From NCBI GenBank assembly GCA_037043015.1, contig CM073322.1, forward strand, positions 1,127,601 to 1,191,600: 64,000 nt of DNA, written 5' to 3'. Under the pieces are notes generated by a model. It had not been told where the DNA came from and made no database searches. It worked only from the letters and a program-made list of their open reading frames with translations. The stretch comes from Bryum argenteum. Its lineage: Eukaryota; Streptophyta; Bryopsida; Bryales; Bryaceae. The translations under genes were made by a program, and so were the position numbers. The number at the start of each line of letters is the position of its first letter. The first letter of the stretch is position 1. Shown here piece after piece: positions 7,201-64,000 of this stretch.

Positions 7201-8214
7201 TCAATGAAACAAGTGGCCTCTGCACCCTGCTGCTCTTGATGAAAAATCCATTTGGATCCTTTCCAACTCTCTATCATTTTCTTTTTTCTTTTCAATCTTT
7301 TTTTGCTTCTCTTCTTCTTCGATGACAGTTTCGGTGAATGTTTTTGAGTTTCAAGAGAGGTCAGATCCAAGAAGGCTTTGTTTCAATTGATCGTAAAATG
7401 TATGATAGTAGCTTTCATGGAGATCAATTGTTCTTCTGGGCCACATTTATCAATCACTGATTTTGTTCATTTGAGGTTTGTATCCGTTGGACTAAGAGCA
7501 GCCAGGATGATGGGCAACATTTAAAGTTTGTTCCATTTTGTTTCTTTTCTTATATTGTTGTATTTTGTTGGGTTTTAGGACTTGTATGTGGGATGTGTTT
7601 TTTCGTTCAATGTATGAAAGTGGGGAAAAACAAAAGGTTAGAAGGACAATTGTTTTACAAACTGTGCATAAAAATTCTGTGATATTAACCCTTAAGCGGG
7701 CCGAATGTCGAAAATCGACATTCTGGATGAGGCCGGGGATGTTTGAAGTCTTCCTGTCTTCTCATCCTCGCAAATTTTCATCCGTCGTTTTTTGGAGTCC
7801 GTTGGTGAACGAATGTAGTATACTGTGATCTTTACTGCCCTATCAAATGTTATTTGCACATTTTACAGGGGTGATTTTAGTGGGAGGCACTTATCTTATT
7901 GAGTGTGTTTCTTCCATTTCGGTGTGAAATTTTTGCAATTGGGCATTGAAATTGGGCAGTTGGGCATGGAGTGTAATTTGCAAAAGAAAAAAGAATGGAA
8001 AGAGGGATTTGATAAGTAAGTCATGATTTAGAAAGAAGTGAGGGTGATTAGTGAGTAATTACTACGACATGGCGGTTGAGCCACCATTTTTGAGTGTACC
8101 ACCAATTTAGAAGGGTCCACCCTTGGGTTTTGGACACCAAGGGCTTATTCATATTCAAACATGTTCCAAACATGTCTTGCACCATACAAAACTCACCCAT
8201 CATCAATGCTCTAA

Positions 8215-8430
8215 TGGCAAAATGTAGCATATTGGAACATCCAACCTCTCACATTCAAATTTCAAACCAATGAATCTCTCCTAGAAAATCACACTCCTAA
8301 AACATTCCATCAATGCAATAAGTTTGAAATGGCAAAATGTAGCATATTTGAACATCCACCATGTCCCATTCAAATTTCAAACCAACAAAATCACACCTAC
8401 AAAATCTCTCCTAAAACAACCCATCAATGC
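8215..8430 (+). repeat. Two-copy ~110-bp direct repeat inside the piggyBac element
   Basis: The two copies start at about 8215 and 8330. Both run from TGGCAAAATGTAGCATAT through CATTCAAATTTCAAACCAA to CATCAATGCAA, with small length differences. They lie between the left end and the extra reading frame. No role is evident; such subterminal repeats can bind transposase, but that is inference. Confidence 0.7.
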
Positions 8431-8509
8431 AAAAATATTCAAATTTCAAAGTGGAAGTACATGGGCTTCTCAACAAATCTGCCCCACTTGTATTTGATGC
8501 ACACAACTC

Positions 8510-8965
8510 TTGCTTTTCTCTATCTTGCATAAAATGGGGACATCAATGGAGACTTTGCTTGTTAGTGCAAAGGAGGAGTTAGTGAGATGGGGAAAATATG
8601 AGAAAGGCTTGGGAGAACAACAACTTGGGTATTTGCTAGATCTATTGGATAGAGATGTGCTATTGAGTTTGCCATGCTCTTCCAAGGTAGAGAAACGTGA
8701 CACACCTCAAGGAATACGCCATTTATTTTACCATCATGTGAGCAATATCTTGGGGTGGAAGGAGAGAGTGCCTGAGGGAGACAAGTTAGGAATTAGTCCT
8801 CTCTTATATGCTTTAGTGCGACAAATTTGGCCTAATGAGCACGATGCATACAACCAGGAGCAGATCAACACAACTATCAGCGGAGATGGAGCAATCTCAA
8901 CAGCAAGAAGTGGGCAACAACTTCCAAGTAAGAAAATCCATACCTTCTCTATGCACACCATCTGA
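8510..8965 (+). CDS. Unrecognised open frame inside the piggyBac element
   Basis: A 151-codon frame with no family that I recognise. From about residue 12 it looks protein-like: charged, mixed composition, with MSAKEELVRWGKYEKG-like helical character and a later stretch LLYALVRQIWPNEHDAY. A donor-like GTAAGA follows the codons for QQLPS at about 8925, so the frame may be an exon that splices before its apparent stop. It lies 1.8 kb upstream of the transposase on the same strand. It could be a second protein of the transposon, a captured host exon, or chance. I do not assign a function. Confidence 0.35.
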   Translation: MLFSILHKMGTSMETLLVSAKEELVRWGKYEKGLGEQQLGYLLDLLDRDVLLSLPCSSKVEKRDTPQGIRHLFYHHVSNILGWKERVPEGDKLGISPLLYALVRQIWPNEHDAYNQEQINTTISGDGAISTARSGQQLPSKKIHTFSMHTI

Positions 8966-9298
8966 TTTGCACATTTAGTGACATGGTGGCTAACACCAAT
9001 GGTGGGGGGGGGGCCATCCAGGGTCCACTCCTTCGAAACAGAAACGCTTGCGGTGCCAGCCTCTTGGCCGATCTAGAGGGCAGAGGAGATGCACTGGCGG
9101 CGACTCTGCAGGAATCGACAGTAACGGCAGCGAAGGCAGCCAATGTCCGCACAGCTTGAGCGTTGGGGGAACGAATGCACTCAGCGGTGCAGATACCCAT
9201 GGGGAAGCTGAATATCATGAAGATTCTCATGGCGAGACCTGCCGCCAAACCTGCATCAACGTCGAGGGAGAGACCGGCGCAATCAACAACATCATAAG

Positions 9299-9500
9299 GC
9301 AGGGGTCAGGAGGCGGATCAATCACCGTGGAGGCCTGCAGTGCCGTCGAGAAGGCTGCCACATCCCCGAAGCACCAACAGCAAGGGAGACACAGCAGGGA
9401 CCTCTGGCAGGGGTCGGGAGGTGGTTCACCCACCCTGGAGGTCTGCAGGGCCGTCGAGGGGGCTGCTAGCGGGCCGGAGTACCGACAGCATGGGAGGTAA
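9299..9500 (+). repeat. ~108-bp tandem duplication within a GC-rich frame
   Basis: Two tandem copies (about 9299-9405 and 9408-9500) each contain GGCAGGGGTC(A/G)GGAGG followed by TGGAGG(C/T)CTGCAG and GCCGTCGAG. In the + frame 9048-9500 they encode two related peptides, each with QGSGGGS and AVE(K/G)AA. The surrounding 9.0-10.7 kb is markedly richer in G+C than the array around it and has several overlapping frames on both strands. None of these frames is recognisable. Confidence 0.65.
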
Positions 9501-10045
9501 AGCAAGGATCTCTGGCCGAGCGGGCCTGGGAACGCCGACAATATCCGGACCGGCTGCATCAACGAGGAGTCGGGGCAGCCACGGCAAGGAAGCGGAGATC
9601 ACGAGACCGTCGCTGCATTGCGTCGATTGCGCGAGGAAGGGACCAACGGAGGATCTCTTGGAGCAACTTCGAAATTTCCTGCATCACGAAGCAAGCATGT
9701 GACCAGCACAAGGACGGAGGTGCATCACGCCAGAAGTTCGAGGGTCCATGACAATTTGTTGTCATGGGTAAATGTAGGAAAGACAAACCGTAGTGATCTA
9801 GGTCGCAGCAAAGAAAGATCACGATCGGGACGCATGGATCCGTTTGCCACGACAAATCGTTGACCTGTAGAAGTTAGATTACTTGAGAGAAGTCGATATA
9901 GATCTAGATTGTGAGGAAGAGAAGAGGACGACGATAGTGGTGAGCGGTGGGTGAGGGAATCTGCGACGAAAAGTTTTGTGTGTCGAATCATCATCTAGAT
10001 TGATCTATGTGGTGGAAATCAACGATGTAACTAAAGAAGTTCCAT

Positions 10046-10231
10046 TTGGTGAGGTTGCTTCAATCTACGCTCATATTCAATCGCGAACATGAAGAAGAAG
10101 TGAGTTTTGAAGAACCTCCGGATCAAGCCGTTGGTGATGCAAGTGACTTTGAGGACACCGATAGTGAAGACGACCTTGATCTTCTTCTCATCGGGGATGA
10201 TCTTGGGCACGACTTACGAAGAACACGGTGA
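10046..10231 (+). CDS. Possible acidic N-terminal part of the piggyBac transposase
   Basis: A 61-codon frame with a strongly acidic stretch (residues about 28-54, rich in Asp and Glu, including DFEDTDSEDDLDLL). piggyBac transposases commonly have an acidic, poorly conserved N-terminus, so this could be an upstream exon of the transposase. The stretch from 10232 to 10718 is not continuous in frame with either part. A strong donor-like GTAAGT at 10702 hints at splicing. The link to the transposase is inference. Confidence 0.35.
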   Translation: MVRLLQSTLIFNREHEEEVSFEEPPDQAVGDASDFEDTDSEDDLDLLLIGDDLGHDLRRTR

Positions 10232-10718
10232 CGATGGCGGAAGCACTATGCGGAATCCAGGTGGGTTCGATCCCTCAAGTGGTGAGTGCCGAAGTGCCGC
10301 AACTTCAATGAGCAAACAAACAAATGAGCACCTCGGCGTGGGCGTCGGGACAAGCACGGGTGGCGCCAACGGCACCTTATCCGAACGGCTCAGTAGCGAG
10401 CCGGCGTTACGGTGTGGACCAAGCTCGGCGGATGGCGAGCCTGTCGAGGCGATCAACGTGGCGACGCCCGATTCGGATGGAGGGGGCTCGGGCTCCGAGC
10501 GGTCTCATGTCCACGTGGACGAGGTGAGAGTCTGCATACTGCAAAGACAGACACCATGCATCGACCGGGCTGTGGGCAACAACGGAGTAAGGGTCCCCCT
10601 GAGAGAGTCCTCAAGGCACCATGGGTGTTGGTGAAAGGCATTCGTCGTATTTTTCGGGCATTTCTCACAAGATGATCGAACACGAACCCCAATATACGAT
10701 GGTAAGTGACATCCCTAG

Positions 10719-12354
10719 TGGGGGAAGGGGCGGGGAGGAAGGGAGGTTCCAAGTGGACTAAGGGATTGGGATAATGGGCCAACATTCAAGGAGTGCTACA
10801 AAGATGAATATTGGGGTCAATTTGTGTCAAAGTACACCCATGATGATGTTGTATTCACGGGACCTAGTGATGGCCCCCCCTATGTTCTTAGGAAAATGTC
10901 CCCCGTGTTAGACTTGTTTCACAAATTCTTCACTAAGAAGACTTTGAGGAAAATAGTGAGAGAGAGCAACCGTTATGCCTCTTCCATTGACCCGGCCACG
11001 GGTTTTACTAGGGGACCCAAAGAATGGTGGAGTTTGACGGTCCCGGAGTTGGAGGCGTGGTTGGGAATCTCCATACTAATGGGGTTGAAAATAGAACCTA
11101 ATCGTAGGTGCTATTGGAAAAGTAGTGAGCCATTTTACTATTGCCATACCATTGCTAACACCATGAGCATGAAAAGATATGAGGCTATAACAAAATGCTT
11201 ACATATCTATGATGACTCTATGGCCCCTACGGATAAAAACGATCCGAATTATGACAAACAAGTGAAGTTAAGGTGGCTAATTGAGGAGGTGAGACTTCAA
11301 TGTGTTGCAAATTGGAATCTTGGCCAATTTGTCACCGTTGACGAGCTCATGGTTAGGTACAAAGGAATGTACGGCCACGGCATGAAACAATACATGCCAA
11401 ACAAGCCGGTGAAATTCGGATTCAAGATTTGGGCGGCGGATTCCAAATCCAAGTACCTTTACAATTTTCAAGTCTACACGGGGCCGATTTGAAGAAAAGT
11501 CTACGCACGGCGAAACCGGGGAGGCGAAAACGGGATACGAAGTGGTGATGGGGTTGATGGAGGGTTTGCACGGGGGGGGCCATGTGGTCGTCACCGACAA
11601 TTTCTTCACATCTCCCAAGCTTTTTGTAGATTTGCACGACTTGGGGACATATGCGACCGGCACCGTGCGTGCGAACCGGATTGGCTTGCCAAGCGACTTG
11701 GTGGACAAGCGGCGGTGGGCAAAACAACCCCAAGGGGCATCCGATTGGCGCATGCATTGCACGGGTACGTTATGCTCTATTGTTTGGGTAGATAAAAAAC
11801 GGGTGTTATTATTGTCAACCCACGCCGAGCCTTTGCCACCGGATCCGGATGTGCCTCTTACGGTGCCTTGATATTGCCGTGGGGAGGACGAACACATACC
11901 CACTTCTCCAATACATTTGGAGTATAGCCGTATGATGCGGGGCGTTGATGTGAGTGACCAACTAAGAGGGGTTTATACGGCGTTGTCCAAAACCCACAAG
12001 TGGTGGCACCGCATATTTATGTTTTTGGTAGACCTTGCGATTACAAACTCTTGGATAATTCATAAACGGGAGAGCTTGGACTTGAGGAACACCTCCATGA
12101 ATCATTTGGAGTTTGTGACGGCGTTGGCATTTGCACTAATGGAGCGTTGGAGACAAAACCGGAAAGGTGTGGTTTCTCTATGCTCTTACACCCCAGGCAC
12201 TCATGGGCTTGTGAAGGTTCAAGGAGGTAGGCACCAATGTGCATATTGCAAGGACAAAAAAAAATTAACCAATCTTGTGTGCAAAGATTGTGGTGGTTTA
12301 TGGTACCATATGGGAGATTGCTTCAGCAAATGTCACTTCACTCTAAGGAGATGA
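10719..12354 (+). pseudogene. piggyBac transposase (DDE_Tnp_1_7 type), interrupted
   Basis: This is the cut-and-paste transposase of the surrounding element. It cuts and rejoins at TTAA and should act in the nucleus. The recognisable part opens near 10719, with RDWDNGPTFKECY, and lacks an obvious ATG. The three catalytic aspartates are visible: VDELMVRYKG (Asp codon at 11340), VTDNFFTS (Asp at 11596) and RGVDVSDQLRG (Asp at 11947). A C-terminal cysteine-rich zinc domain follows (CAYCKDKKKL, CKDCGGLWYH, DCFSKCHF) and ends at 12354. The frame shifts once near 11490, and one in-frame TGA at 11869-11871 falls where family members usually have an Arg. CGA to TGA would be a CpG decay change. Both lesions are mild, which suggests a fairly young element. 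Confidence 0.9.
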
Positions 12355-12439
12355 GCATGTAAGATTGCATTCCTTGCATATTCTTTGTGTTAGTTTGTTT
12401 TATTTTTTTTCTATTCCATTTGTACATGAAATTTAGTGA

Positions 12440-12745
12440 TGCTATGGACTACAGTGGGTACTCCAGGGACTAATGTACAGAATTTGGAGTCACTCCAGGG
12501 TTTTTTCTATTACATTTGGAGTTACTACTGGGTTTTATCCTATTACATCTGATGTCACTCCAGGGACTAACTTAGTGGGTTACATTTCGAGCACAGGGAC
12601 TCCATGTCGATGGAGCAGTAATCCAATTTTTGGAGATAAACGAAAGGCATCCAGGGGAGGTTACTTGGAAAGGTGGCATCTTCCAAATTACTAAACCAGG
12701 GCTAATCAAGGGGAGGTTACTTGGAAAGGTGGCATCAGTAAAGCA
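12440..12745 (+). repeat. Short tandem repeats downstream of the transposase
   Basis: From 12440 to 12610 an imperfect ~45-60-bp unit recurs, each time with GTCACTCCAGGG or ACTCCAGGGACTAA. A second direct repeat follows: GGGGAGGTTACTTGGAAAGG occurs at about 12654 and again at about 12711, 57 bp apart. They lie inside the piggyBac element between the transposase stop and the right end. I see no gene from 12355 to 13708. Confidence 0.6.
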
Positions 12746-15361
12746 CATACTGTTTCAGAAAAAAAAAATGGCATTTTTGGCAAACCAGGCCACCAGCTGC
12801 CCAATTCCCCTTCGTTGTGGCTGCAGGTGTAAGGAGGAGCGAAGGACGGGCTTGGGATTGAGCCTGCCAGCAGTGGCTGAGCCGGCCACATCTTGCAGAC
12901 CGATGACGCGGGCATGGGGAGGAGCGCGCAGCATCAACGGCTGCGGACCCATCAACGGCTTACAATTTTGGAAGGCCCCTTGAGGCCACTTACTATTCCA
13001 GGGCTTTCTCTATGAAAATAGTTATGCATGGCAGAGGGTGGAGTTATGACCCTCAGAGGTGACATGCACGGGTTTTTGGCTTATAGCGCATATTTTATTC
13101 ACTTTTAGGATGGCATTATGGATTCTCCATCCATTTTAGTACTTTTTTTCATGTACTTTGCCATGGTGTCAGGCACCCAACGGCTTGTAAGTGTCATCTT
13201 TTTGTTCTCTTCTTTATAAAAGTCTGCCCGTCTTACACTAAGTTTTGTCCACGTACGACTTGAGCTTGGATGGGCAGGCTTGGAATAGTATTGGGCTAAA
13301 ACAGTATTCTCAAGCCACTTGCATTGCAAATATGAGTGTGTGTGATTGGAAAGGGATATGTTTGTTTTTTTTTCGTGAATAGCTTCCTTACTTCATGCCA
13401 CACATTTTTCTAGTTTACCAAATTTGCTTGCGAGGCAATTATCAATATGACTTTTCATTGCAAAGTCCAAAAATGGTACCTGCCCCTCCATTTCGAGCAC
13501 TCACTTTCTTCCATGAATCATGTGGATCAAGCCTCACCCCAACCCCAAATGGAATAAAATTTTGCACATGTACTCTTTAGCCAGTAGAGATCAAGATCCT
13601 ACGGTTGGATTTGGAATTTACTGCCCTTGCTCTCATCTAATGAGCTTGACATTTTTTATAAATTTGGACCCCTCTCCATCTGCCTCAATGGAACGAAACG
13701 TTTAGGGGTTAAGTAGTAACGGACAGAAGTTGGGAAATTTTGAGGGAGCTGGTTTGATGATTTCATTGATCATGCTCAATTGACAGGTTCACCTTTCTGT
13801 GACTACGATTTTCAATCTGATTTTCAATTTGTGCCCTTTTATGTTTGTGACCTTTTTTTTTCGTGGTGAAAGTACTTATTTCACCACCTTTAGGATGATA
13901 CTCAACATATACTTCTTAACATTAGAAAATTTACAAAATTACAAAATTGGATGGAGTAAATAATCAATGTAACTTGTGTGATACTTTTGTATCTTTAAGT
14001 TTCAACACATGTTTTTGAGTAGATCAAAGGAATGGAAGTACTTTTAGTTATTGATATGTTGTTTATGGCAAAAATAAATGCGTGATGCTTATGTCAACTT
14101 AAAGCACTTGAAGGAAAGGTCCAATCACTCACACCCTTCTTATCTCCAACTCAAAACCAAATACCTTCGCAAGTGTGAGAGATTGAGGTCATTTTTTCAC
14201 AAAACATTGTGACATCAAAAAGTTTCAAAAGTTTGGATTACCAAACTTATATTGTAAGGAATGAGCACACTTAGTTCAATTCAGGAATAAATGTAATCTA
14301 ATTGTACTTCAAGTGATGCGTATCACAATTGTCATTTATTGGATCCTTGTAAACCACATTCATAGCAGTTTTAAACAAAATAAATCCACGAATGGAAGAC
14401 CTTTAGTTTATTCTAATCAAAGGATTGTAAGTACAATTATCAAGACTCGTGACCATAATTGTAAGAGTGTCCAATTATTATACAGAAAGCTTATGGCAAT
14501 CGTTGTGGTGGTTCAAATTCTACATTCTACAAGCACTTAATGTGTCTCTTTTTTCAAACATTGAACAAATTATGAACATTTGACTCTATGCCATCATAGA
14601 ATGTAAATGTGTGTAACGTATACAAATTTTCTACAATGTTCATGGAAATGCACGTACCATTGTTTTCTTTTCAGTTATGATTCCTATTCATTTGTAAGAC
14701 TCAATTTAGATGAGATGTACATCTAAGACATCTTGCAATGTATCAAATGATTGTACATCTCCTCTAGATTGTGTGTGATAAATAAATAGGAATTTCATTT
14801 AATCGATATAACACTAGGACATACATCTTTAGGTTGTTAACACATACCAAGTCACCGGAAGGAGCATTCCACAATGACAAAGATAAGTATTACATACACA
14901 CACATACAAATGTGATTATGATGAATAAGCGTAAGTGATGGCGAAGTATAAGGAATTTATTTTTGAAGTCCTTTGGGTGCCAAATACATCACCTTCAAGG
15001 TATAATATACTCTCAACACTCAAAAAATAGTGTCAACCCGTACATAATAAACCTTCTTATTCTTGTACCTCTATGGATGCTTCCACTCAATTACCCGGAA
15101 ACCATTTCATCCTTGGGACTAGCTTTTACATGGCGCCAAACTTAAAACTCCAATTAAAAGTCTATAAATTATCTAGTTGTGGGTATTGGTATGTACAAAA
15201 ACCAATCCTCAAATATATAATATTTTAGGCATAAGTACATTTTCAAATTCTCAAATACAAGAAAATTCATGAACTTTGGCTACAGTCATGTTCAAGGCTA
15301 AGTGAATGGGTCGCAACAAGTACTTATTTCTTTGAAGAATGAAAAGATTTTCTCATATATA

Positions 15362-16098: not shown

Positions 16099-19000
16099 GT
16101 ACAAATACGTGATACCGAATACTGCCACTGACGTGTGATGTTTACCGGCCTTGTCAACGGACAACGACAACGCACAATAATGGCGCTTCATGCCTACAAC
16201 TTCAGCTCAGTCTCTACAAGCCATTCGCCATGGCGAACTCATAGAGGTGTTGTCTTCCATTTTCGGTCCGAGCATTGTAGAGTGAAGCTAGGGTTCGAGG
16301 CGGGTTTCATCACATCGCATTCTTGCGGGAGCGCGAGGAGTGCGGGAGCGCGAGGAGTGCAAGAGCGCCGAGGAGTGTAGGAGCGCTTAGGAGTGCGGGA
16401 GCGGTGAGGAGTCCGGAGGGTGCGTGTTGCTACGAGTTCTTACGGTGCGTGATCATAGGGAGGGGTAGTGCCAAGCATTTAGGGCGACCTTGGCAACCAT
16501 GTGCATGTGTGATGATTGTGTATACCGATGCCATGGTTGTTCAAATGCATAATGACTTGGGACTTCTTCTTGCATTGATCGCGCAATGTAAGAACACTTA
16601 TTATCGCCAAGAAATTTAGTCCACCCTCGAGGATGTTGATCTCGAGGATGTTGATGTCAATGTCGATGCAACTGAAGTTGTTGATGCCAATGAAAGCATG
16701 TTGGCTGTTCAGGAAGTCAGTCAGGCCTTTGCTAAAGGTTTACAGGATCATGGTACCAGTAATGGGAGGTGATGAGTTTGGCTTCTTTGAATCTCCTTCT
16801 TGTTCCTAAATTGATTAGCTTTTAAACAACAAATAATTCTAATCTCGAGCCACTGGAGTTGGAGTCTCGGTATTTGAGTTGGAGACTTTGTATTCTTGAT
16901 GAACATTCATCCGAACGTTACTTACGGTCACTCAATCTTTCTTTCAATCAACTTGTCTGATTATTTTGTTTTTTTTTTGCCAATTTTTTTAATTGCATCT
17001 TGAAGTCATATTTGTCGAGAATGATCTTTTGTACTTGTTATCGGAACTTCTTCTTCGGTGGTTCTGCAATCGTCTAATCGTTTCTTCGTGTATTGTGAAA
17101 TATTCTTACAGTTTATTGCTCAATGAAATGAGTGGCCTCTGCACCCTGCTCGTGATGAAAAATCCATATGGATCATTTCCAACTCTTTTTCGATTCCTTT
17201 TTAATTTCCACTCGTTTCTTTACTTTATTCCTTTCCTGTTCTTTTCTTTTTCAATGAAAGTTTCAGTGAATGTTGTTGAGTTTCAGGAGAGGTCAGTTCC
17301 AAGAGGGCTTTGTTTCATTCGATTGTACATAAATTTGCTTTCATGGAGATTAATTGTTCTTCTGGACCACATTTATCAATCAGCGATTATGTTTATTGGA
17401 GCTTTGATTTTGTTGGACTCTGAGCAGCCAGGATGATGGGCAACAAAATCAATTCGCTCCATTTACTTGTTTACTTAATTTGTTGTATTTTGTTGGGTTT
17501 TAGGACGTGTATCTGGGATGTGTTTTTTCGTTCAATGTAAGAAAGTGGGGATAAACAAAAGATTAGAAGGCCAGTCATTTTACAAACTGAACATCAAAAT
17601 CATGTGATATTAAGTAGTGACGGACAGAAGTTGGGTAATTTTGAGAGAGCTGGTTTGATGAGTTCATTGATCATGCTCAATTCACAGTCCAACCAACCTT
17701 CGTGACTATGATTTTTAATGCATTTTTTAATTTGATTCTCAATCTGTTACTTGTGAGATACTTTTGTACCTTTAGGCTTGAATGTATGTTTTTGAGTGGA
17801 TCAAATTGAACGCCAACATTGCAGGCTGAGAATTTGATGATATCGTACAAATACGTGAGAATTACGAATACCCTTTGCCGCCCCGTGCTTGTGACGTTTA
17901 CCGCCTTGTTGACCGACAAAGAACGGTCACATGAGCTCAAGAACGGCGCTATAATTCTAGAGGTGCGGCTCGGTCTCTACAAACCATTCGCCATGGCAAA
18001 CTTACGAGGCCCGATCTATGATTCCCCATGCAGAGGGAAGCGATTCGAGGCGGGTTTCATCACGGCTCTCTAGAAACCATACGCCATGGCGAACTCATAG
18101 AGGCCCGATCTGTGATTCCCCATCCGTGCATTCGAGAGGCAAGCGATTCGAGGCGGGTTTTATCTCGGTGGCTTGCGCGATCTGTAATTCCCCATGTGTA
18201 CATTGCATAGTCAAGCGAGGGTTCGAGGCATGTTTCATCACGGCGCATTCCAAGAGCGCCGAGGAGTTTACATGTTGTGTGTTGCTATGTGTGCTTCCGG
18301 TGCGTGATCAGAGGAATGGGGAGTGCCAAGCTCTCCATGCATTTAGGGTGGCCTTGGCAACCATGTGCGCGTGTAGTGATTGCATACACCGAACCGTGTG
18401 CGCGTGTAGTGATTGCATACACGGATGCAATGGCCGTCCTAAATGTATAACGACTTGGAACTTCCAATTCCTCTAATCGCGCATCGTGAGAACACATATT
18501 GTCTCCATAAATTTGGTCCTCCCTCGAGGGAGTGTCGCAAGAGAAGGTTATCACTCAGAGGCTCTACTTTCCCGCATCTCAAGGAACTTCATGTTTTGAC
18601 ATCATAGTCAGTCATTGTTCTAGATGGACACTGTTATGTTGTCAAGTTCTTCATTCAACAACACTCTACAAAGTGAAAGGACGCGGTTCGCTTCTTCTAC
18701 GGATATTTTGCCAATGTTTGGAATGGATGTTGAAGTCATATTTGTTGAAAATGATCTTTTTGTTCCTGTTATGTACAGCGTTTTCGGTGGTTCTAATCGT
18801 TTCTTTGTTCACTGTGAAATCTTCTTACAGTAACTCTCATTCAATGAAATAAGTGGCCTCTACACCCGCTCTTGATGAAAAATCCATTTGGATCCTTTCG
18901 AACTCTTCGCCATTTTCTTTTTTCTTTTCAATCTTGTTTTGCTTTTCTTCTTTTTCAATGAAAGTGTCAGTGAATGCTTTTGAGTTTCAGGAGAGGTCCG

Positions 19001-24029: not shown

Positions 24030-24781
24030 TCATCTGATTGCACAATTAATGGAACTAGCTTTCTTCATGGAGATTAATTGTATTTCTAGGCCAAATTTAT
24101 GAATCACCGATTGTGTTTGTTTGAGCTTTGGTTTCGTTGGATGATGGGCAACAAAATAAATTTGCTCCATTTTGTTCGTTTTCATATTTTGGTGTATTTT
24201 CTTGGATTTTAGAACTTGTATCTGGGATGTGTGGTTTGTTTCAATGTAAGAAAGTGGGGAAAAACAAAAGGTTAGAAGACCATTCATTTTACAAAATGAA
24301 CATAAAAATCATGTGACTGACAGAAGTTGGGTAAATTGAAGAATGGTGGCTATGATTTTGACAGAGGTGGTTTGATGGATACATTACTCATGCTCGATTT
24401 AATAGGTTCAATCTTTTGTTACTATGATTTTCAATTTAATTTTTCGATTTGTGCCCTTCTATGTATGTGAACATCTCTTTCATGCTCAATGTACATATTT
24501 CACCACCTTTCAGAATGACACTCAACAACCACCTATATTTCTTATCATCGTTTGGTTGGAAAGCTACATAATTACGAAATTGAAAGGAGCAATTGACATG
24601 TGTTACTTGTGTGATACTTTTGTATCTTTAAGTTTCAAAGAATATTTTAATGGAACTCAAAGGAAAGTACTTTTTGATTATTAATATGTAGTTTATGGCT
24701 GAGATATAGTAGGTGAATGGTTAAGATTTGGTACAAGGAAGAGCATAACCGAGGAAAATATTCTTACTTATGCTAACTTAA

Positions 24782-25643
24782 CCCTTAAACGTCAGACCCA
24801 ACCCGAGGGGTTGGGTTTTTTTTTGAGAGAATCTTGCTCATAACTTACACTCCATTATACCAAATGGAATTTTTAAAATTCCAAACTGAGCACCTTAAAG
24901 AGATCTATACTTTCTTAGAATAGAGCTCACGCAAATTAAAAATAGAATAATGCTAAAGGGCAATGGTAAGCTTGGGGTATCACTTTTTGGACACACTAAT
25001 TAGGTTATTTTTATTGAAAGCCTCCAAAGTTTGTCTAATTTAGTCATTTTAATCAAGTAAAAAGACCCTAAAATAGAAAATAAAATATCATGCACCTCAC
25101 TAAAATCAAAGTATATATGCCTATAGATTTTCTTTTAGATTTTTTATTTTTTTTGGATCCATTCATAGATGAGGGAAAAAGTGCTGAATTTGGGGATTTG
25201 CAGGCATTATAGTGCACAATGAATTAATTTTTTTATTATTAAATAAATTATTTTGTATTCTATACAAGAAGATGTAGGTCATATTCAAAAATTATATTAA
25301 AATAAAAATGGATGATATTCCATTTGCTTGATTCAATGGATTTTAGATTATTGGAACATGACTTACTTTTTCAACTAAAAAATCAAATGAAATTACTTCA
25401 AAATATTTTTTTTAATTTTTAATTTTTTTTCTTGATACATTATAAGTATAGACAACTAAAACCACATCTAATGAAGTCTTATTGTATTACAGTTTAAAAA
25501 TAGATATGTTTGTCACACCAACATAGAGTGCAATTGTTCATGGGACAACCTTTTTGGGTACCCCAACCAGACTATCACCCTAAAAGTGGAGTTTTAGAAG
25601 AGATTTTGGGTGTGGTATCAGGACAACATATGACGTTTAAGGG
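24782..25643. mobile_element. piggyBac-ended non-autonomous element, 862 bp
   Basis: The ends are CCCTTAAACGTC at left and the exact reverse complement GACGTTTAAGGG at right. The element is flanked by TTAA at 24778-24781 and 25644-25647. The uninterrupted site with one TTAA is at 29658-29661 in copy 5. The interior is AT-rich without a coding frame. The ends resemble those of the 6 kb piggyBac element, which could be a source of transposase. Confidence 0.9.
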
Positions 25644-26529
25644 TTAAAGTAGGTGAATAGGCAGAATTTGGTTTGGAAAAGGTACAGTCATTCACACCCT
25701 TCCTATCTCTAACTCAAAATGGCACATGTAACATTGTGAGTTTGACAGATTGAGGTCGATCTTGTTACAAAACATTGTGACAATAATAGGTTTGAAAAGT
25801 TTGGAACACCAAAATTATATCTTAATGCATGAGCACACAAGTTTGGTTCAATTCAAGAATGATTGTAATCTAAAGACAATCCAACTAAGGGTCTCATTGT
25901 ACCAAAAGTAACAATGTGGAATTTCTTAAACAAGGGTTTTGTGATTTGGTTGTTGTAATCGTAACAAATTGTTTATAGTAATTTCTTGTTTGTTTTCTTT
26001 TTTATCAAAACATTGATTCTTCCTTAGCTTTTAGCATTCTTACTTTCATTCAAATACACTCAACTCTAACTTGAGTTTGAGACAATTGTTACATATAGGA
26101 TCCTTGATTATTTCTTAACCACATATATAGATGTTTTAGAGGAAATAAATCAACACATGGAAGTCAACCTTTAGTTTATTCTCCTTACAACTCAAAAATT
26201 TGAAGCTACAATCATCAAGACTCATAATTGCAAGAGTGTGCAATTATTATACATACGGCTTATTTACGGCATTTATCGTTGAGTTTTAAAATTGCTATTC
26301 TACCAGCTAATGTGCATATATTACAAACATTGAACAAATTATAATTGCCTTAGTAGATTATAAATGTGTGTAAGTTATATATAGGTATCAATGATGTTCA
26401 TAATGCACGTACATCTCTAAATTGTTATACATACCAAGACCCTGGAAGGTGCATTCCACAATGACAAAGATAAGTATTAGAAACACACACAGACATATGT
26501 GAGTATCATTGAAAACATATAAGCTTTCA

Positions 26530-27457
26530 CCCCTAAAAATCCAAGCGTTTCCTCAACCTCCAAAACCAAAAACTTGTCATGTTGCACCTTCCGTTGATGG
26601 GAAATGGGGAAACATTTGGAGAATTTTTTTTTCTGGTATTGGACTTCGAACCGTAAGATCTTGTATCTAACTTGTATACAAAGGATTAGTCACTATTTCA
26701 ACCGTTGGATGTTTGTCATTTGTGAGATCATAACTTCCAAAGTTTGTCTAACACTTTTTTTTGCCGCTGTCCGAGAGGCCTAAATGGTGCCAAGGGCAAC
26801 TTGATGATCATTACTCCAAACATTTTCCCCTCATTTTTCCCCATGTAGGTAATCAAGTTGGGTACACTCATGCAAAATTTTAGAGACTCATTCTACTTTT
26901 AGACCTTAATGTACATTATTTTATGAAAGAAGGTCTTAAAACAACAATATAGTGAAACAAGCACCACATATGATGTATTAAGTTTAAGAAGAATTTGAAC
27001 GGTGCGTAGGTGCCTTTATGAGTATGTGAATTTGGAAAAAAAATCACGGAAAAATCTAAAATCTAAAATTTTGACAATTCTTGAAAGAAAAAATTGTAAA
27101 ATTACTAGAAATTGTGATGATTGTTTTTGAAAGTTTTGGAGGTTGCCCTTGTAAAAGTTGTACACGTTTTGACTTTGAACACTTTGGAACTTGAATAGTA
27201 ATTTGGTAATGAACATATTTCCAGAAAAAAATTCTTTAAAAAAACATTATTTTAAACTGCCCATTTTGGACTTGAAACCTAAAATTTCTAGAGGAAGGTT
27301 ATAAAATTAAAATTTGGATTTGCATATTTTACCACATACACATTACAATATGGGGAGCACCCAGTAAAAATCTTAAGCAAAAATATCAATTTAACCCCTT
27401 AAAATGAGCTGCCCAAAATCTCAATAACCAAATCGGTTTTTCCTGGATTTTGAGGGG
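26530..27457. mobile_element. piggyBac-ended element at an array rearrangement junction
   Basis: The left end is CCCCTAAAAATCCA, after TTCA, which is one change from TTAA. The right end, reverse complement, is CCCCTCAAAATCCA, next to an intact TTAA (27458-27461). A further TTAACCCCTTAAAA lies inside at 27391. The left flank matches the spacer around 30535 and the right flank matches the middle of a monomer around 29074. The two ends therefore do not border one target. The interior is AT-rich. The array segment expected between the two flanks (end of spacer, monomer A and part of the next) is missing here. Confidence 0.75.
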
Positions 27458-30400
27458 TTAATGGTTCTTCTGGGCCACATTTATCAGTCACCGATTATGT
27501 TTATTTGAGCTTTGATTTCATTGAAGTGTGAGCAGCCAGGATGATGGGCAACAGAATAAATTCGCTCCATTTACTTGTTTTCTTATTTTGTTGTATTTTG
27601 TTGGGTTTTAGGACTTGTGTCTGGGATTTGTTTTTCGATCAATGTAAGAAAGTGGGGAAAAACAAAAGGTTAGAAGGCTACTCATTTTACAAACTGAACG
27701 TAAAAACCATGTGATAATAATTAGTGGCTAACAGAAGTTGGTTAATTTTAAGAGAGCTGGTTTAATGAATTCATTGACAGGTTCAATCTTCTGTGACTAT
27801 GGTTTTTGATGTATTTTTCAATTTGATTTTCAGTCTATTACTTGTGTGATACTTTTGTACCTTTAGGTTTTGATGAATGTTTTTGAGTGGGTCAAATTGA
27901 ACGCCAACATTGCAGGCTGATAACTCGATGATATCGTACAAATACGTGAGAATTCCGAATACCCTTTGCTGCCCCCATCTGACGCTGATTGCTGCCCCCA
28001 TCTGACGCTGATTGTGACGTTTACCTACCTCGTCGACCGACAGCAACTGTCACCAGAGCTCAAGGAGGGCTCTGTAATTGAAGAGAGGTGCAGCTCAGTC
28101 TCTAGAAGCCATTCACTACGGCGAACTCGTAGAGGTGCAATCTATAATTTCCCATCGTTGCATATATTGCAGATGCAAGCGAGGGTTCGAGGCGGATTTC
28201 ATCACGGCCGCGCGCGCGATCTGTAATTTCCAATGTGTGCATAACAGAGTCAAGCGACAAAAGCGAGGGTTCGAGGCGGGTTTCATCACGGCGCATTTCA
28301 GGAGCGCCGAGGAGTTTACATGCTACGTGTTGCTATGTGTGCTTACCGTGCGTGATCACAGGAATGGGGAGTGCCAAGCTCTGCATGCATTTTGGGCGAC
28401 CTAGGCAACCATGTGCGCGTTTAGTGATTGCATACACGGATGCCATGGCCGTCCTAAGTGTATAACGGCTTGGGAATTCCGATTCCTCTTATCGCGCATT
28501 GTCAGAACACGTATTGCCTCTAGAAATCTAGTCCTGCCTCGAGGGAGTGTATAAGAGAAGGTTATCGCTCATAGCCTCTACTTCCCCCCATCTCGAGGAA
28601 CTTCATGTTTTGACATTATAGTGTGTAATTGTTCTGGACAATGTTATGTTGTGAAGTTCATTCAACAGCACTCTACAGAGCAAAAGCACGCACTTTGCTT
28701 CTTCTACAGATGCTTTTGCCAATTTTTGGAATGCATGTTGAAGTCATATTTGTTGAGAACGATCTCTTTGTTCTTGTTATGAACAACTTCTTCGGTGGTT
28801 CTAATCATTTCTTTCTTCATTGTGAAATCTTCTTAGAGTTACTCTCATTCGATGAAATAAGTAGCCTCTGCACCCTGCTGCTCTTGATGCAAAATCCATT
28901 CGGATCCTTTCCAACTCTTTGCCATTTTCTTTTTTCTTTTCAATCTTTATTGCTTTTCTTCTTTTTCAATGAAAGTGTCAATGAGTGTTTTTGAGTTTCA
29001 GGAGAGGTCCGTTCTAAGAGGGCTTTGTTTCATCTGATTGTAAAATTTATGGTACTAGCTTATTTCATGGAGATTAATTGTTCTTTAGGGCCAAGTTTAT
29101 GAATCACCGATTGTGTTTGTTTGAGCTTTGGTTTTGTTGGATGATGGGCAACAAAATAAATTTGCTCCATTTTGTTCATTTTCTTATTTCGGTGTATTTT
29201 GTTGGGTTTTAGGACTTGTATCTAGGATGTGTGTTTTGGTTCAATGTAAGAAAGTGGGGAAAAACAAAAAGGTTAGAAGACCATTCATTTTACAAAATGA
29301 ACATAAAAATCATGTGATGATAATCAGTGACTGACAGAAGTTGGGTAAATTGAAGAATGGTGGCTATGATTTTGACAGAGGTAGTTTGATGGATACATTA
29401 ATCATGCTCAATGTACATATTTCACCACCTTTCAGAATGACACTCAACAATCATCTATATTTCTTATCATCGTTATGTTGGAAAGTTACATAATTACGAA
29501 GTGTTGTATCTTTAAGTTTTAAAGTATGTTCCAATGGAACTCAAAGGAAAGTACTATTGATAATATGTAGTTTATGGGTGAGATATAGTAGATGAATGGT
29601 TAAGATTTGGTACAAGGAAGAGCACAACCGAGGAAATATATTCTTACTTATGCCAACTTAAAGTAGGTGAATAGTTAGAATTTGGTTTGGCAATCATTTA
29701 CACCCTTCCTATCTTCAACTGAAAATGGCACATGTAACATTGCGAGTTTGACAGACTGAGGTCGATCTTGTTACAAAACATTGTGACAATAATAGGTTTG
29801 AGAAGTTTGGAACACCAAAATTATATCATAATGCATGAGCTCACCTGGTTCAATTCAAGAATGATTGTAATCTAAAAACAATTTAACTAAGGGTCTCATC
29901 ATACTAATATTAACATTGTGGAATATCTTAAATGAGGGTTTTGTGATTTGGTTGTTGTAATCGTAACAAATTGTTTATAGTAAGTCCTTGTTTGTTTCTT
30001 TCTTATCGGAACATTGATTCTCTGTAAGCTTTTAGCAGTCTTACTTTTATCCAAATACACTCAACTCTTGAGTTCGGGACAATTGTTACATATTGGAACC
30101 TTGATTTTTTATAAACCACATAAATAGATGTTTTAGAGGATATAAATCAATAGATGGAAGTCGACCCTCACTTTATTCTCCTTACAGCTTAAAAATTTAA
30201 AACTACAATCATCAAGACTCACGGACCATAATTGCAAGAGTGCAATTATTACACCATACGGCTTATGGCATTTATTGTCGAGGTTCAAAATTGCTATTCT
30301 ACCATCACCTAATGTGCCTATATTTCAAACATTGAACAAATTATAAAATTTAACTCTTTGCCTTAGTAGAATGTAAATTTGTGTAAGTTATAAAAAGGTA

Positions 30401-31132: not shown

Positions 31133-32602
31133 CTGGCATTGCAGGCCCATCACTTAATGACATTGCAGGCCCAAATACGTGATATCAAAAAACTACCGGA
31201 GTCTTACGCTCATTGTGACGTTTTCCGAACTCGTCGACCGATAGCGACGGTCACTGGGACTCAAGAAGGGCGCTTCATGTTTACATGTGCAACTCAGACT
31301 TCTGAACTCATAGAGGCATTGTCTGTAATTCCCCGTCCGTGCATTGTAGAGTCAAGTTAAGGTTTGAGGAGGGTTTCATTATGGAGCATTCCTGCAGCAC
31401 TAGTAGAAAATCGCACTAAAAGTGACTTCCGTAATAACTTGACCGTAATGACACATAGTGAATAATTTAAATTGTGCCTCTAATTGCATGACAGTAAATT
31501 ATTATATCTGTCACCTCTCATTTATTTTTTTACTAATCTACTAGGTTTTGGTATGTCTATTACACTAGTAGAAAATGGCAAAAAGTGACGGCCGTAATGA
31601 CTTGACCAGAATGACACAAAGTGTCAATTTTAATTGTGCTTCTAATTACGTCAAAATAAATCATTATACTTGTCACTTTTCCTTAATTTTTTTATTGATC
31701 TATTGAAGTGTGGTATGCTTATTACAACCCCAAAAAATCTAAGAAAAAGTGACAAATATCATAATTTATTTTGACGTAATTAGAAGCACAATCAAAAGTG
31801 ACACTTTGTGTAATTTAGGTCAAGTCATTACAACCGTCACTTTTTTGCCATTTTCTACTAGTGTTACAACAAAAAAAAATCTAAGAAAAAGTGACAAATA
31901 TCATAATTTATTTTGACGTAATTAGAAGCACAATTAAAATTGACACTTTGTGTCATTCCGGTCAAATCATTATGGCCTTCACTTTTTTGCCATTTTCTAC
32001 TAGTGTTACAACAAAAAAAAACCTAAGGAAAAGCATCAAATATTTAATTTATTTTGATGTTATTAGAAGCACAATTAAAACTGACTCTTTGTGTCATTAC
32101 AGTCAAGTCATTACGTTTGTCACTTTTAGTGCCATTTTCTACTAATGCACGAGCGCCGAGGAGTCCACAGGCAACGTGTTGTTACGTGTTCTTACAATGC
32201 GTGATCACAAGGACGAGGAAGTGCCAAGCTCTACATGTATCGAGGGCGGCCTTTGACTTGCGCGTGCCGTGATTGCGTACATGGATGCCATGGCCGTCCT
32301 AAATGCATAACAACTTAAGACTTCCGATTTCTTTGATCGCTCATTGTAAGGTTACATATTGTCGCCAGAATTCTAGTACTAGCCTTCTAGTCCCTCTAAG
32401 CCATTCGCCATGGCGAACTCATATAGGCGTATTCTATAATTCCGTGTACATGCATTGTAGAGTCAAGATAGGGTTCGAGGGGGGTTTCATCATAGAACAT
32501 TTATACATGAGCGCCGAGGAAGTATTTGCAGCTATGAAACTAGATAGTGCACACGAGCAGAGTAGTTATGTACTGAGGCGGGAGAGTAAGTTGCAGCTAT
32601 GA
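31133..32602 (+). repeat. Tandem array, last partial copy
   Basis: A truncated monomer A (31133-31397) is interrupted by the CACTA-type nest and resumes at 32148 with GAGCGCCGAGGAGTCCA. A second small fragment of the same block (CCATTCGCCATGGCGAACTC) is at about 32400-32530. After about 32600 the array similarity stops. Confidence 0.8.
31398..32147. mobile_element. Nest of CACTA-type foldback MITEs
   Basis: The outer left end is CACTAGTAGAAAATCGCACT at 31398. A second left end (CACTAGTAGAAAATGGCA) is at 31563. Right ends of the form GCCATTTTCTACTAGTG finish at 31863, 32005 and (as CTAATG) 32147. The inner unit 31563-31863 is a 301-bp near-perfect palindrome flanked by TTA on both sides. A 3-bp duplication and CACTA ends are the signs of the CACTA (En/Spm) superfamily. 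The right arm of about 142 bp is present three times in tandem (31722-31863, 31864-32005, 32006-32147). No transposase is present. Confidence 0.85.
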
Positions 32603-34310: not shown

Positions 34311-34314
34311 TTAA

Positions 34315-34739
34315 CCCCTAAACGCCCAAGGGGGATAAAGCTCCTAATAGTTGGTAATAACGCTGATTTTTTCAAAACTGCGTAAAAACAAATAAAATAT
34401 GAAAATGAAAAATCCAACCGTAGGATCTTCTTTGGAGCATGGCAATTAGTATGACTGCCAAGTAGCATGTCATTTGGAGCTATGGATTTCAAGATCCATG
34501 CAAAAAAAGGGTGAAGATCACACCACCAAAACTTTCATGCAATATCTCTTTCGCCCACTCTCACAAATTGAGGATCAAGTTTTTTACTATTTATCCAAGG
34601 AGGGAGTACAGTAAACCCGCCGAGGTGTTGGGCAAAAAAACGGCAGATGAAAAATCGATGGGATGAAAGCGGGGTTGTGCACCGAAGACGGAGCCTCACA
34701 TCAAGAATGTCGAAAAACGACACTGTGGGCGCTTAAGGG
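34315..34739. mobile_element. piggyBac-ended MITE, 425 bp
   Basis: It is flanked by TTAA at 34311-34314 and 34740-34743. The left end is CCCCTAAACGCCC and the right end is GGGCGCTTAAGGG. A subterminal palindrome (AATGTCG, AAAA, CGACA) precedes the right end, as in the 6 kb element. The interior contains CCAACCGTAGGATCTT, a phrase shared with other members of this family in the window. There is no coding frame. Confidence 0.88.
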
Positions 34740-34959
34740 TTAAGTTGTGGTAGGAAAGGTCATTGCCCCAATAAAAGTTACTCTTATAGATAGGAGATTA
34801 GACTATGCTTATCTGACTAGTTATTTACAAGAGAATATTTGTGTTTTAAAAATATGAGTTGTATTGTAGCTCACGCTTTATTGTCATATTGTAGTCACTT
34901 ACATATCACCATTGCTACATTGAAGAGGGTGGTAGGATATGGTTATTGGATATTGTTAA

Positions 34960-35219
34960 CCCCTAAAGATCCTTGATACAAAATTGTCTAAATCATCAAA
35001 ACGAACTTTCTTCTACTTCAGGCCCAAAGAAACTCAATCTAAGCATTAATTAGAAGATCCAACCGTAGGATCTTGAAGCTAACTTGACCCTTTACTCAAA
35101 TAATAAATTTGAACCGTTAATTTTTCTCTAATTTTGAGATTATAATGGTCAAAGTTGGCTGAAATTTTTCCCTGCGGAAATCCCAAAAAGCCATTTCGGC
35201 TTTCTTGGATCTTTAGGGG
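34960..35219. mobile_element. piggyBac-ended MITE, 260 bp
   Basis: It is flanked by TTAA (34956-34959 and 35220-35223). The ends CCCCTAAAGATCC and GGATCTTTAGGGG are exact reverse complements. The interior has the phrase CCAACCGTAGGATCTTG, seen also in the 425-bp copy upstream. The perfect ends suggest a relatively recent insertion. Confidence 0.88.
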
Positions 35220-35486
35220 TTAACAAATCATGGAAATATATTGAGATTATCAGCTTACCAAAGTGATAATATATATTTATGATTATTTTCAATTGGTAGC
35301 TATTATCAAGAAAATTCATAAATTGTTGCCTAACTATTCTAGTGTACCAACAACACTCTTGCGTAGTTGGATAAGCATGTTTTCAAAAACTTTAGTTTTT
35401 CTTAATTAAAAATCAAAATTATACCCAAGTACTTTGGTCACTCCAGACTTGAATAATCTTTAAGATAGATAGGGTTGCTGCATTAA

Positions 35487-36459
35487 CCCCTAAACGTCCC
35501 AGCCTATTTTTAGCAGAAAAGCACATTTCCATAAAAATCGTCATAGATGAAAATAAAGAGAAGCTATTAAGATCTCAACCGTACAAACTTGTAATAGACT
35601 TATCGAAGATCATGTGGACCAAAATTTGAGTCATGAGGTTTTATAGATCGGGAGATCATAACATATTAATACTAAAAACAAACTGCAAAATTTCATCATT
35701 TTCACTTTGAGGTGGAAATGCTACCAATATACCTATTGCAATGAAAAAGTCACCAACTAGAAAGATGTTCACCTTCATCTTAATAAGTCCTTTACCCAAC
35801 AAAAATTCATCAAAAAAATTTCTTGGCTCAAATAAAAGCCATGCAATGGTAAAAACTGCTGAAAATTTTACAAAGGAAAAATAGTCCAAAACTAGACCCT
35901 TTGCATTCAATTTCATGCCTTATCTTCAAAACATCTTCGATCTTGTTAAGGTTTCTACCACTTAGACTAGACTCTAATTGGAGGCCATCCCAAAAAATTA
36001 AGTTGAAATCCAACGGTGGATGAGGGAGATATAGCTCCTCAAATATCATCCATTTTCTCACTTTTTCTGTTGACAAAACATCATTGCAAATCCAATAGCA
36101 AAATCATTTGGATCAAAAAACTTCTCACTACAAAGTTGTTAAGAATCACCTTAAAATCATGACCATGAAAAAAAAAATCATGAAAAACTATTTTTAATTT
36201 CACATAATTGGCTTGCAATGGTAATACATGCCCCATGCTTGGAAACCCAAAAACAAGAGCTGTCTTCACTAAAGTGCATTCCATTAATTCATACTTTATT
36301 GTATGGGCTTGCAAATTTTACAACACAAACTAGACTTGATTTGGAACCTAACACAAGTGATTTCATCCAAAACGGAGTTTGGATGAAGGCGTTATGGCTC
36401 TTCAAAGTTTCTGCCCTCCATCCAAAATGTAGAAAAACGACATTGGGGACGTTTAGGGG
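35487..36459. mobile_element. piggyBac-ended non-autonomous element, 973 bp
   Basis: It is flanked by TTAA (35483-35486 and 36460-36463). The left end is CCCCTAAACGTCCC and the right end is GGGGACGTTTAGGGG, a 13-base match. A subterminal palindrome (ATGTAG…CGACAT) lies at 36427-36443. The small frames inside on both strands are not recognisable. It is the longest member of the family in this intergenic block. Confidence 0.88.
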
Positions 36460-36463
36460 TTAA

Positions 36464-52029: not shown

Positions 52030-52544
52030 TTAATTCGCACATGGGCGTGGCGCCCATGTGCAGTTAGCATCAAGTGAGTTTTTTAGGGTGGTTTGCATCC
52101 GTAGAGAAGTGCATTTGCAGAGGGTCGAACCAGAGACAGGCACAAAGTCCCTCCTCTTCCCACCATCCTTTGCTAGTTTAAGGTTGATTCCGATTGAAAC
52201 CTTCATTTTGTATACTAAAAGAAAGAAAGGGGCAAAACAAACTTGGACCGAAATATGTGGCAATAGAAGAGCAAATAATACATATATCTCAAAAATCTTG
52301 CCATAAGCATTCTCATTACCTTGCGACCCTCGTGTTAGAGATTCCTCCATGTTCAAAGTAGGCCAGTCTACCAACTGAGTCATCAGAGATTCCTCCATGT
52401 TCAAAGTAGGCCAGTCTACCAACTGAGTCATCAGAGATTCCTCCATGTTCAAAGTAGGCCAGTCTACCAACTGAGTCATCAGAGATTCCTCCATGTTCAA
52501 AGTAGGCCAGTCTACCAACTGAGTCATGGTATATTAAACTTGCT
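52030..52544 (-). repeat. tRNA-like (SINE-related) repeat with a 48-bp head module in four copies
   Basis: On -, TGACTCAGTTGGTAGACTGG resembles a tRNA A-box region. It is part of a 48-bp module repeated four times (about 52331-52528). The last copy runs into CTCTAACACGAGGGTCGCAA, which resembles the region before a SINE B box. Further along is TGGTTCGACCCT (about 52112-52123), a good B-box match but far away. A perfect 11-bp hairpin (GCACATGGGCG, CGCCCATGTGC) lies at 52037-52061. Because 48 is a multiple of three, a 165-codon frame with a 16-residue repeat (MTQLVDWPTLNMEESL) is open across it; I regard this as incidental. Confidence 0.55.
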
Positions 52545-54581: not shown

Positions 54582-54891
54582 CACTAGCAAAAAATGGCAT
54601 TAAAAGTGGCGACTAAATGACTTGTCCATAATATCACGGAGCACCAATTTTGATTGTGCTTCTAGTGACATCAAAATAAATCATAAAAAAATCTACTTTT
54701 CCTTAATTGCTTCTACTAATCTAGTAGGCCTTGGTATATATGCTTATTATAACAAAAAAAAAACTAAATCAAAGTAATTATTATAATACTTTATTTTGAT
54801 GTCATAAGAAGCATAATTAAAACTTGACACTTAGTGTCATTATGGACAAGTTATTACGGCGAGTCACTTTTAGTGCCATTTTGTACTAGTG
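54582..54891. mobile_element. CACTA-type foldback MITE, 310 bp
   Basis: The left end is CACTAGCAAAAAATGGCATT and the right end is GCCATTTTGTACTAGTG. It is flanked on both sides by the 3-bp duplication GAT (54579-54581 and 54892-54894). The arms share sequence with the nest at 31398-32147, including TTGTGCTTCTAGTGACATC, so it is the same family. There is no coding capacity. Confidence 0.85.
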
Positions 54892-54894
54892 GAT

Positions 54895-56142: not shown

Positions 56143-56146
56143 TTAA

Positions 56147-58142: not shown

Positions 58143-58261
58143 TTAAGTTTCATCTTCTTCAATCCAAGAAGACCGGAACTAATCGAAGAAATGGTAGTGG
58201 CTATAGCATCATCACCTTATAAAATCTTGCGCTTCTTTTTGTTGGCGTTGCCGTTCACTTG

Positions 58262-63671: not shown

Positions 63672-63960
63672 GTGAATAAAGTGTTCATTCAACCTATTCT
63701 TCAATGAATGCCCAGAGGTCATCACATCAATGGGTGGATTACTAACTCCTCTCCGGATGAACATTATGTTAATTCCTACCTAGCCACTAGTGCTTTAAAG
63801 ATATCCGATATGGTATCCCCCAAAGAGTTTTGAGATACCATACAATGATACAACGAGGTCCAAGAACCCCTCACCATAATTGGGTGGATGAAGGTGGTGA
63901 AGTTTAATATTAACCCCTAATGGAGAAGCTCTGTAATATTGTCGAGACAAGCCTCATGTG
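63672..63960 (-). mobile_element. Degraded relative of the tRNA-derived SINE
   Basis: Sequence from GAATAAAGTGTTCATTC to CCATAATTGGGTGGATGAAG parallels the 23670-24029 SINE over most of its length. Shared phrases are GCTTTAAAGATA(T/C), ATAGTATCC/ATGGTATCC and CAACGAGGTCCAAG. The part that would hold the tRNA-like head is badly diverged. It is an older copy on the same strand as the other one. Confidence 0.65.
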
Positions 63961-64000
63961 AAATTTTTTTTCTTTTTAAATTTGAGTCATGAAATTTAAC

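Follow-up and report, generated by a model that had tools for sequence, protein, structure and literature searches.

A decayed piggyBac-superfamily transposon and smaller TTAA elements with related ends in 64 kb of probably land-plant DNA

The 64,000-nucleotide stretch of contig CM073322.1 analysed here (the window, with positions counted from its first letter) carries an insertion of about 6 kb, PB6k, whose target site, ends and broken transposase gene point to the piggyBac superfamily. Related CCC ends also delimit smaller elements, five at 24–37 kb and a sixth at 56–58 kb. A model's sequence-only reading had already singled out PB6k as a piggyBac transposon whose empty site survives in the window, a claim borne out by the TTAA copies, the ends, the joined-flank alignment and the PF13843 matches described below; the further elements had been missed. 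The insertion and its empty site are defined by the following features.

7685–13712, plus strand: PB6k, piggyBac-superfamily element, with TTAA duplication, inverted ends, empty site and Pfam matches
7685–7698, plus strand: left TTAA and terminal inverted repeat, matching the reverse-complemented right end at 12/14 letters
13699–13712, minus strand: right TTAA and terminal inverted repeat, paired with the left end
17610–17613, no strand: empty site of PB6k in a sister repeat, a single TTAA located by alignment of the joined flanks

PB6k measures 6,028 bp with both TTAA copies (7685–7688 and 13709–13712) and 6,024 bp with one. Its inverted ends, TTAACCCTTAAGCG and TTAACCCCTAAACG, agree at 12 of 14 letters with the TTAA included, and show the superfamily trait of short inverted ends beginning CC[C/T]. 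When the flanks at 7.6 and 13.7 kb were joined by script, their alignment to the paralogous repeat at 17.6 kb did continue across the site, at 83.2% identity over 375 columns and with 109 of 124 positions identical at the site. The single TTAA reported at 17610–17613 was thus confirmed, whereas the host sequence around it, which had been called identical, is homologous and not identical at these values. The TTAA is present at this place in one of seven aligned paralogous segments, and the simplest order of events is that PB6k inserted after the host unit had been duplicated. Measured against their empty sites, both PB6k and one of the smaller elements (M870) show the TTAA duplicated on insertion.

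A supporting argument from length, in which subtracting the insertion made the interrupted host copy (~4,977 bp) match the next one (4,960 bp), was not reproduced with the markers D2, D12 and D13. Their spacing across the insertion (9,925, 11,427 and 11,527 bp) falls to 3,901, 5,403 and 5,503 bp after removal of 6,024 bp, as against 5,008, 4,968 and 5,004 bp in the next unit. The copy borders behind that argument may differ from the markers, and the array is irregular; the junction alignment is independent of borders. The host array, at 1–31400, consists of irregular direct tandem units of ~5 kb with ~70–90% identity and internal sub-repeats ~1.6 kb apart. A 21–23 bp inverted repeat ~110–130 bp from both ends of PB6k was dropped as a candidate feature, as it was reached by 37 of 1000 letter shuffles. 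Reports of piggyBac come mostly from animals, which might suggest a contaminant or an assembly chimera with animal piggyBac DNA joined to plant DNA; this is highly improbable, given that both junctions fall exactly at TTAA within homologous host repeats, and that related ends occur on one contig with plant-like genes.

The conserved part of the transposase gene is read in three pieces.

10719–11492, plus strand: piece 1, frame 1, stop-free from 10719, Pfam match on 10824–11492, Asp at 11340–11342
11464–11871, plus strand: piece 2, frame 2, Pfam match on 11542–11871, Asp at 11596–11598, ending at the in-frame stop 11869–11871
11872–12354, plus strand: piece 3, frame 2, Asp at 11947–11949, Cys/His tail at 12232–12336

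All three match the profile that had been proposed as a check, Pfam PF13843 (DDE_Tnp_1_7), in profile order (4–178, 194–280 and 304–349; E-values 2.8e-37, 1.2e-18 and 6.4e-07, each above the cut-off of 22.4 bits), and no other superfamily is indicated. Against 177,635 distinct PDB sequences, the sole matches of piece 1 at E 0.01 are the piggyBac of Trichoplusia ni (T. ni; 6x67, E 2.8e-13) and piggyBat (E 9.2e-09). Piece 2 alone has no PDB match at E 0.01, and piece 3 is closer to piggyBat (9c0f, E 8.7e-07) than to T. ni piggyBac (E 0.0013), with three other, weak matches up to E 1. The three aspartates and the cysteine-rich tail noticed in the sequence-only reading were both recovered: the residues at 11340 and 11947 line up with aspartates in T. 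ni piggyBac, that at 11596 was located through the Pfam range plus the DN motif, and we take the three to be the catalytic ones of piggyBac transposases. The tail, uninterrupted in this copy, has the ligand order of piggyBat, CxxC-CxxC-HxxxCxxxxH, and not that of T. ni piggyBac. Searching viral contigs and genome contigs with piece 1 yielded no relative, as none of the 5 and none of the 12 candidate stretches, respectively, was confirmed.

The frame changes between pieces 1 and 2, upstream of the stop at 11490–11492 that ends piece 1, and pieces 2 and 3 share one frame divided by the stop at 11869–11871. The earlier count of one frameshift and one in-frame stop accordingly stands for the conserved part (~10.72–12.35 kb). 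It does not extend upstream of 10.72 kb, where the frames are interrupted or spliced, so that further lesions are possible. "Nearly intact" was a generous description, since the conserved region has both a frame change and a stop, and the N-terminal region is unassigned; as it stands, the copy cannot encode an intact transposase. Animals and ciliates have domesticated piggyBac genes, and the transposase region might likewise be a host gene and not part of a mobile element, a reading that the broken frame, the terminal inverted repeats and the empty site in the sister repeat leave with an almost negligible probability.

Two further features lie upstream of the transposase pieces.

8534–8965, plus strand: open frame of 143 aa from the first ATG, its stop-free length reached in 14/500 simulations of 7685–9000
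9298–9516, plus strand: tandem repeat, two copies of a 108-bp unit, inside a GC-rich block

The open frame is possibly a first exon or a second gene; it has no Pfam or NCBIfam match, no PDB match at E 0.01 (four weak ones at E 0.25–0.87), and no second copy within the window. Open frames at 9.0–10.75 kb, in the GC-rich block, are no longer than chance (162/500), and three frames at 9.05–10.63 kb have no Pfam match. An acidic stretch at 10046–10231 and other frames upstream of 10.72 kb may be N-terminal coding sequence.

The smaller elements, and the one empty site found among them, are as follows.

24778–25647, no strand: M870, 870 bp, without transposase, TTAA and 13/14 inverted ends, palindrome 24796–24816
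29658–29661, no strand: empty site of M870 in a sister repeat, a single TTAA located by joined-flank alignment
26526–27461, no strand: M936, one TTAA decayed to TTCA, palindrome 27426–27438 (weak), right-end motif with 3 mismatches
34311–34743, minus strand: M433, without transposase, palindrome 34708–34722, exact right-end motif 34412–34429 at the opposite end
34956–35223, minus strand: M268, without transposase, palindrome 35187–35203, exact right-end motif 35057–35074
35483–36463, minus strand: M981, without transposase, 14/14 inverted ends, palindrome 36426–36444 (weak score)
56143–58146, plus strand: M2004, candidate seventh element, 2,004 bp, ends TTAACCCTAGGACGTC and TTAACCCCTGGACGTC, palindrome 56163–56179

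The joined flanks of M870 align to its empty site with 109 identities, 6 mismatches and 18 gap letters over ~60 bp per side. Allowing up to 2 mismatches, the window has 15 matches to the end pattern TTAACCCYTAARCG (shuffle mean 1.17, maximum 6, n = 100): ten are the ends of PB6k, M870, M433, M268 and M981, one is an end of M2004, three belong to a 34-bp tandem repeat at 42.1 kb, and one lies at 63910. We also scanned all TTAA pairs 150–8000 bp apart for at least 11/14 matching inner letters, and obtained 12 pairs, compared with 0–3 in each of 10 simulated windows. These were M870, M433, M268 and M981, three cross-pairings, two pairs in a palindromic repeat at 31.6 kb, and three that are unexplained. 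At 12/14 or better, seven pairs remained (the four elements, one cross-pairing and the two in the palindromic repeat), compared with 0–1 in each of the 10 simulated windows. PB6k, M936 and M2004 are absent from the list of pairs at 11/14 or better; M936 was recognised from the sequence surrounding a weaker right-end motif copy, and M2004 was revealed by listing TTAACCC/GGGTTAA, which occurs 19 times in the window (in 50 simulations, 7.6 times on average and 14 at most). Six of these 19 are unpaired into elements (27391, 40014, 50541, 51440, 55732 and 63910). The last letters of the window, 63910–64000 (TTAACCCCTAATGG), may come from the left end of another element that the window border truncates.

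Over 45 bp, the left end of PB6k is 78% identical to M433 and 76% to M981, and these two resemble one another over 50 bp (82%). As piggyBac-type miniature inverted-repeat transposable elements (MITEs), which have a TTAA duplication and ends in common with an autonomous element, M433 and M981 are included through these 45 bp, and M870 through its empty site and short ends; the assignment is weaker for M268, M936 and M2004. No second interior copy was found in the window for the elements compared, M936 not being among those. The interior of M2004 has several open frames, five of which were tried and had no Pfam match and one of which had no PDB match at E 0.1; it is possibly captured host sequence.

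Two structures inside the ends of PB6k recur among the smaller elements.

7703–7723, no strand: left-end palindrome GAATGTCGA-AAA-TCGACATTC, bp 15–35 from the tip, centre 25, reached in 0/2000 own-end shuffles
13593–13610, minus strand: right-end motif ATCCAACCGTAGGATCTT, 18 bp, 102 bp from the element edge

The score for a palindrome ~25 bp from the tip singles out one end in each of the seven elements, weakly in two of them (bp counted from the tip with TTAA uncounted, centre 25 within 1 bp). For PB6k, M870, M936, M433, M268, M981 and M2004, the better end scores 11, 12, 5, 6.5, 7.5, 5 and 8.5, values reached in 0, 0, 206, 24, 9, 132 and 7 of 2000 simulations of the element's own ends, while every opposite end scores at most 4. 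The summed better-end score of 55.5 compares with a simulation maximum of 33.5 (0/2000, own ends simulated). Considering the first six elements, centres 24–26 come top among centres 12–99, and none of 20,000 random window draws reached the palindrome sum, which also holds for M870, M936 and M268 alone. The palindrome sequences are of five kinds, represented by PB6k with M433 and M981, by M268, by M936, by M870 and by M2004. Since place and symmetry are kept while the sequence differs, there were probably several transposase lineages, each with its own site preference. PB6k has one copy of its palindrome at the left end (up to 4 mismatches allowed), with GCGGG ahead of it at bp 8–12. The right-end motif ATCCAACCGTAGGATCTT is exact in PB6k, M433 and M268, at 102, 101 and 101 bp from the edge (TTAA counted) and opposite the palindrome; the copy in M936 lies 119 bp from the edge. 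Elsewhere, at 40226–40261, 36 bp have 83% identity to the right end of PB6k, and no TTAA element was found around them.

Taken together, we assign a probability of about 0.88 to the reading that this feature is a decayed autonomous-type piggyBac-superfamily transposon, sharing its 64-kb window, probably from a land plant, with about six other piggyBac-type elements. An alternative that we consider unlikely holds that PB6k is a true piggyBac and that the small TTAA elements form one or more unrelated TTAA-inserting MITE families, with CCC ends arisen by convergence. In its favour, M870 and M2004 are without a good copy of the right-end motif, several end types occur (CTAAACG, CTAAAGATCC and GGACGTC), and the small elements have only their ends in common with PB6k, their interiors showing no similarity to it. 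Convergence would, however, have to account for the 45 bp of the PB6k left end in M433 and M981, for the exact right-end motif at equal distance in M433 and M268, and for a palindrome position common to all seven, if weakly in two; moreover, TTAA duplication with CC[C/T]T ends is described as a piggyBac hallmark (PMC2872659).

The unlike interiors also weigh against the main reading, as do several other observations. M936 has TTCA at one end and a right flank that departs from the sister sequence, and so has no clean empty site; only PB6k and M870 have one, and none was found for M433, M268, M981 or M2004. With 206 and 132 of 2000 simulations reaching their scores, the palindromes of M936 and M981 are weak singly, and the one in PB6k, M433 and M981 is common by descent. 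Some ends had been seen before the centre was fixed at 25, only M2004 being found afterwards, and M2004 scores higher for another palindrome, which lies at bp 73 of that end. The right-end motif has no good copy in M870, M981 or M2004 (6, 6 and at least 7 mismatches), and occurs with one mismatch at 40228, outside any element found. At 6 kb, PB6k is longer than the intact beetle elements of 2.1–3.5 kb given in PMC12732532. Finally, AlphaFold models of two pieces, made without an alignment, had a mean predicted local distance difference test score (pLDDT) of 41 and 37, too poor for use.

The neighbouring genes bear on the host, for which the sequence-only reading had drawn its comparison with flowering-plant genomes. 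A gene on the minus strand at 59.7–62.4 kb has an FKBP part whose best PDB match is Arabidopsis FKBP42 (E 3.9e-22, followed by a wheat FKBP at 1.2e-20), and a TPR part for which FKBP42 comes second to an engineered TPR protein; this FKBP42-like gene suggests a land plant, though not specifically a flowering one, and few genes underlie that assignment. There are short-chain dehydrogenase exons at 37.8–38.8 kb, and a long glutamine-rich open frame at 49451–50824. From 42.7 kb on, the region resembles what is presumably a plant SPT20-type gene, although the pieces tried had no Pfam match. At 52337–52527, four perfect copies of a 48-bp tandem repeat can be read as a repeated peptide on the minus strand. 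Palindromic repeats at 31398–32147, with units of ~140–160 bp, are related to 54577–54897; one unit starts CACTAGTAGAAAA, which we take to be reminiscent of CACTA-type MITE ends.

A close likeness in layout is to piggyBat of Myotis lucifugus, which also has a DDE_Tnp_1_7-type transposase, the same order and nearly the same spacing of zinc ligands, and a palindrome ~25 bp from the left tip with none at the right end (PMC11707139). In piggyBat, GCGGGA at bp 11–16 of the left end is followed three bp on by an imperfect palindrome that the right end lacks (PMC11707139). GCGGG thus stands just ahead of the palindrome in both, at bp 8–12 in PB6k and 11–15 in piggyBat, whose first palindrome (P1) lies at ~bp 19–32 by our own reckoning from the repeat unit in that paper. 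Unlike PB6k with its one palindrome, piggyBat has three at the left end, and PB6k further differs in its right-end motif ~100 bp in, its plant host and its 6-kb length. T. ni piggyBac shares with PB6k the TTAA target, short CCC inverted ends, three Asp, a left-end palindrome at similar distance and the best PDB score for piece 1; in contrast, it has the same 19-bp palindrome at both ends and the Cys/His order CxxC-CxxC-CxxH-CxxC. The two tip-nearest motifs of piggyBat are placed and spaced much as in piggyBac, and both the palindrome in the T. ni complex and the first palindrome of piggyBat are occupied by two cysteine-rich domains (PMC11707139). By analogy with these two layouts, we infer that the left end of PB6k would be used in the same way, its palindrome being a candidate binding site of cysteine-rich domains.

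For the smaller elements, the coral CMITE elements offer a parallel: these MITEs also insert at TTAA, as empty sites attest, and are linked to piggyBac-like transposons. They differ in that their interior is more conserved than their ends (PMC2872659), whereas in the window the ends are common and the interiors are not. Among land plants, the fern Ceratopteris richardii carries the PiggyBac superfamily label, on 1,230 pieces totalling 122 kb and thus ~100 bp each, and the available text of PMC6890710 yielded no full element or end structure. PiggyBac is listed among the superfamilies in every group of one survey, land plants included (PMC4438587), and among angiosperm MITE superfamilies (PMC10004981). 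A 2025 paper calls plant piggyBac occasional, naming red algae as an example (PMC12732532), and the main text of a 2025 MITE survey of 207 plant genomes contains neither "piggybac" nor "ttaa" (PMC12550479). The suggestion that autonomous-sized elements of this kind are unfamiliar in flowering plants is therefore partly right, with the last two sources in its favour and the other three against it: the superfamily is already reported for land plants, and the host group is under-described. No description of a full plant piggyBac element was found in the searches made of the open PMC library, subscription papers lying outside this coverage.

By this comparison, a transposase dimer would bind the left end of PB6k, its two cysteine-rich domains holding the palindrome centred at ~25 bp and its core domain the tip itself, whereas the right end would be recognised differently, perhaps via the motif ~100 bp in. 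Excision at TTAA and reinsertion at another TTAA would follow, and the small elements without transposase might be mobilised by transposase from full copies. Clean excision is established for the piggyBac family in the literature. More tentatively, and at slightly less than even odds, the seven elements may represent at least four piggyBac lineages, autonomous and MITE-like, in which the place of the palindrome was kept while its sequence changed, as if transposases and their binding sites had been co-diverging in plants.

Although piggyBac is a widely used tool for DNA insertion and clean removal, a natural plant lineage is barely described in the literature covered. The most useful part of the result is the one-ended palindrome at a fixed place: with two empty-site pairs and seven end structures, this one window could be used to test whether piggyBat-like transposases in general recognise the left-end palindrome, and could help to ask whether plants keep, or once kept, active piggyBac elements.

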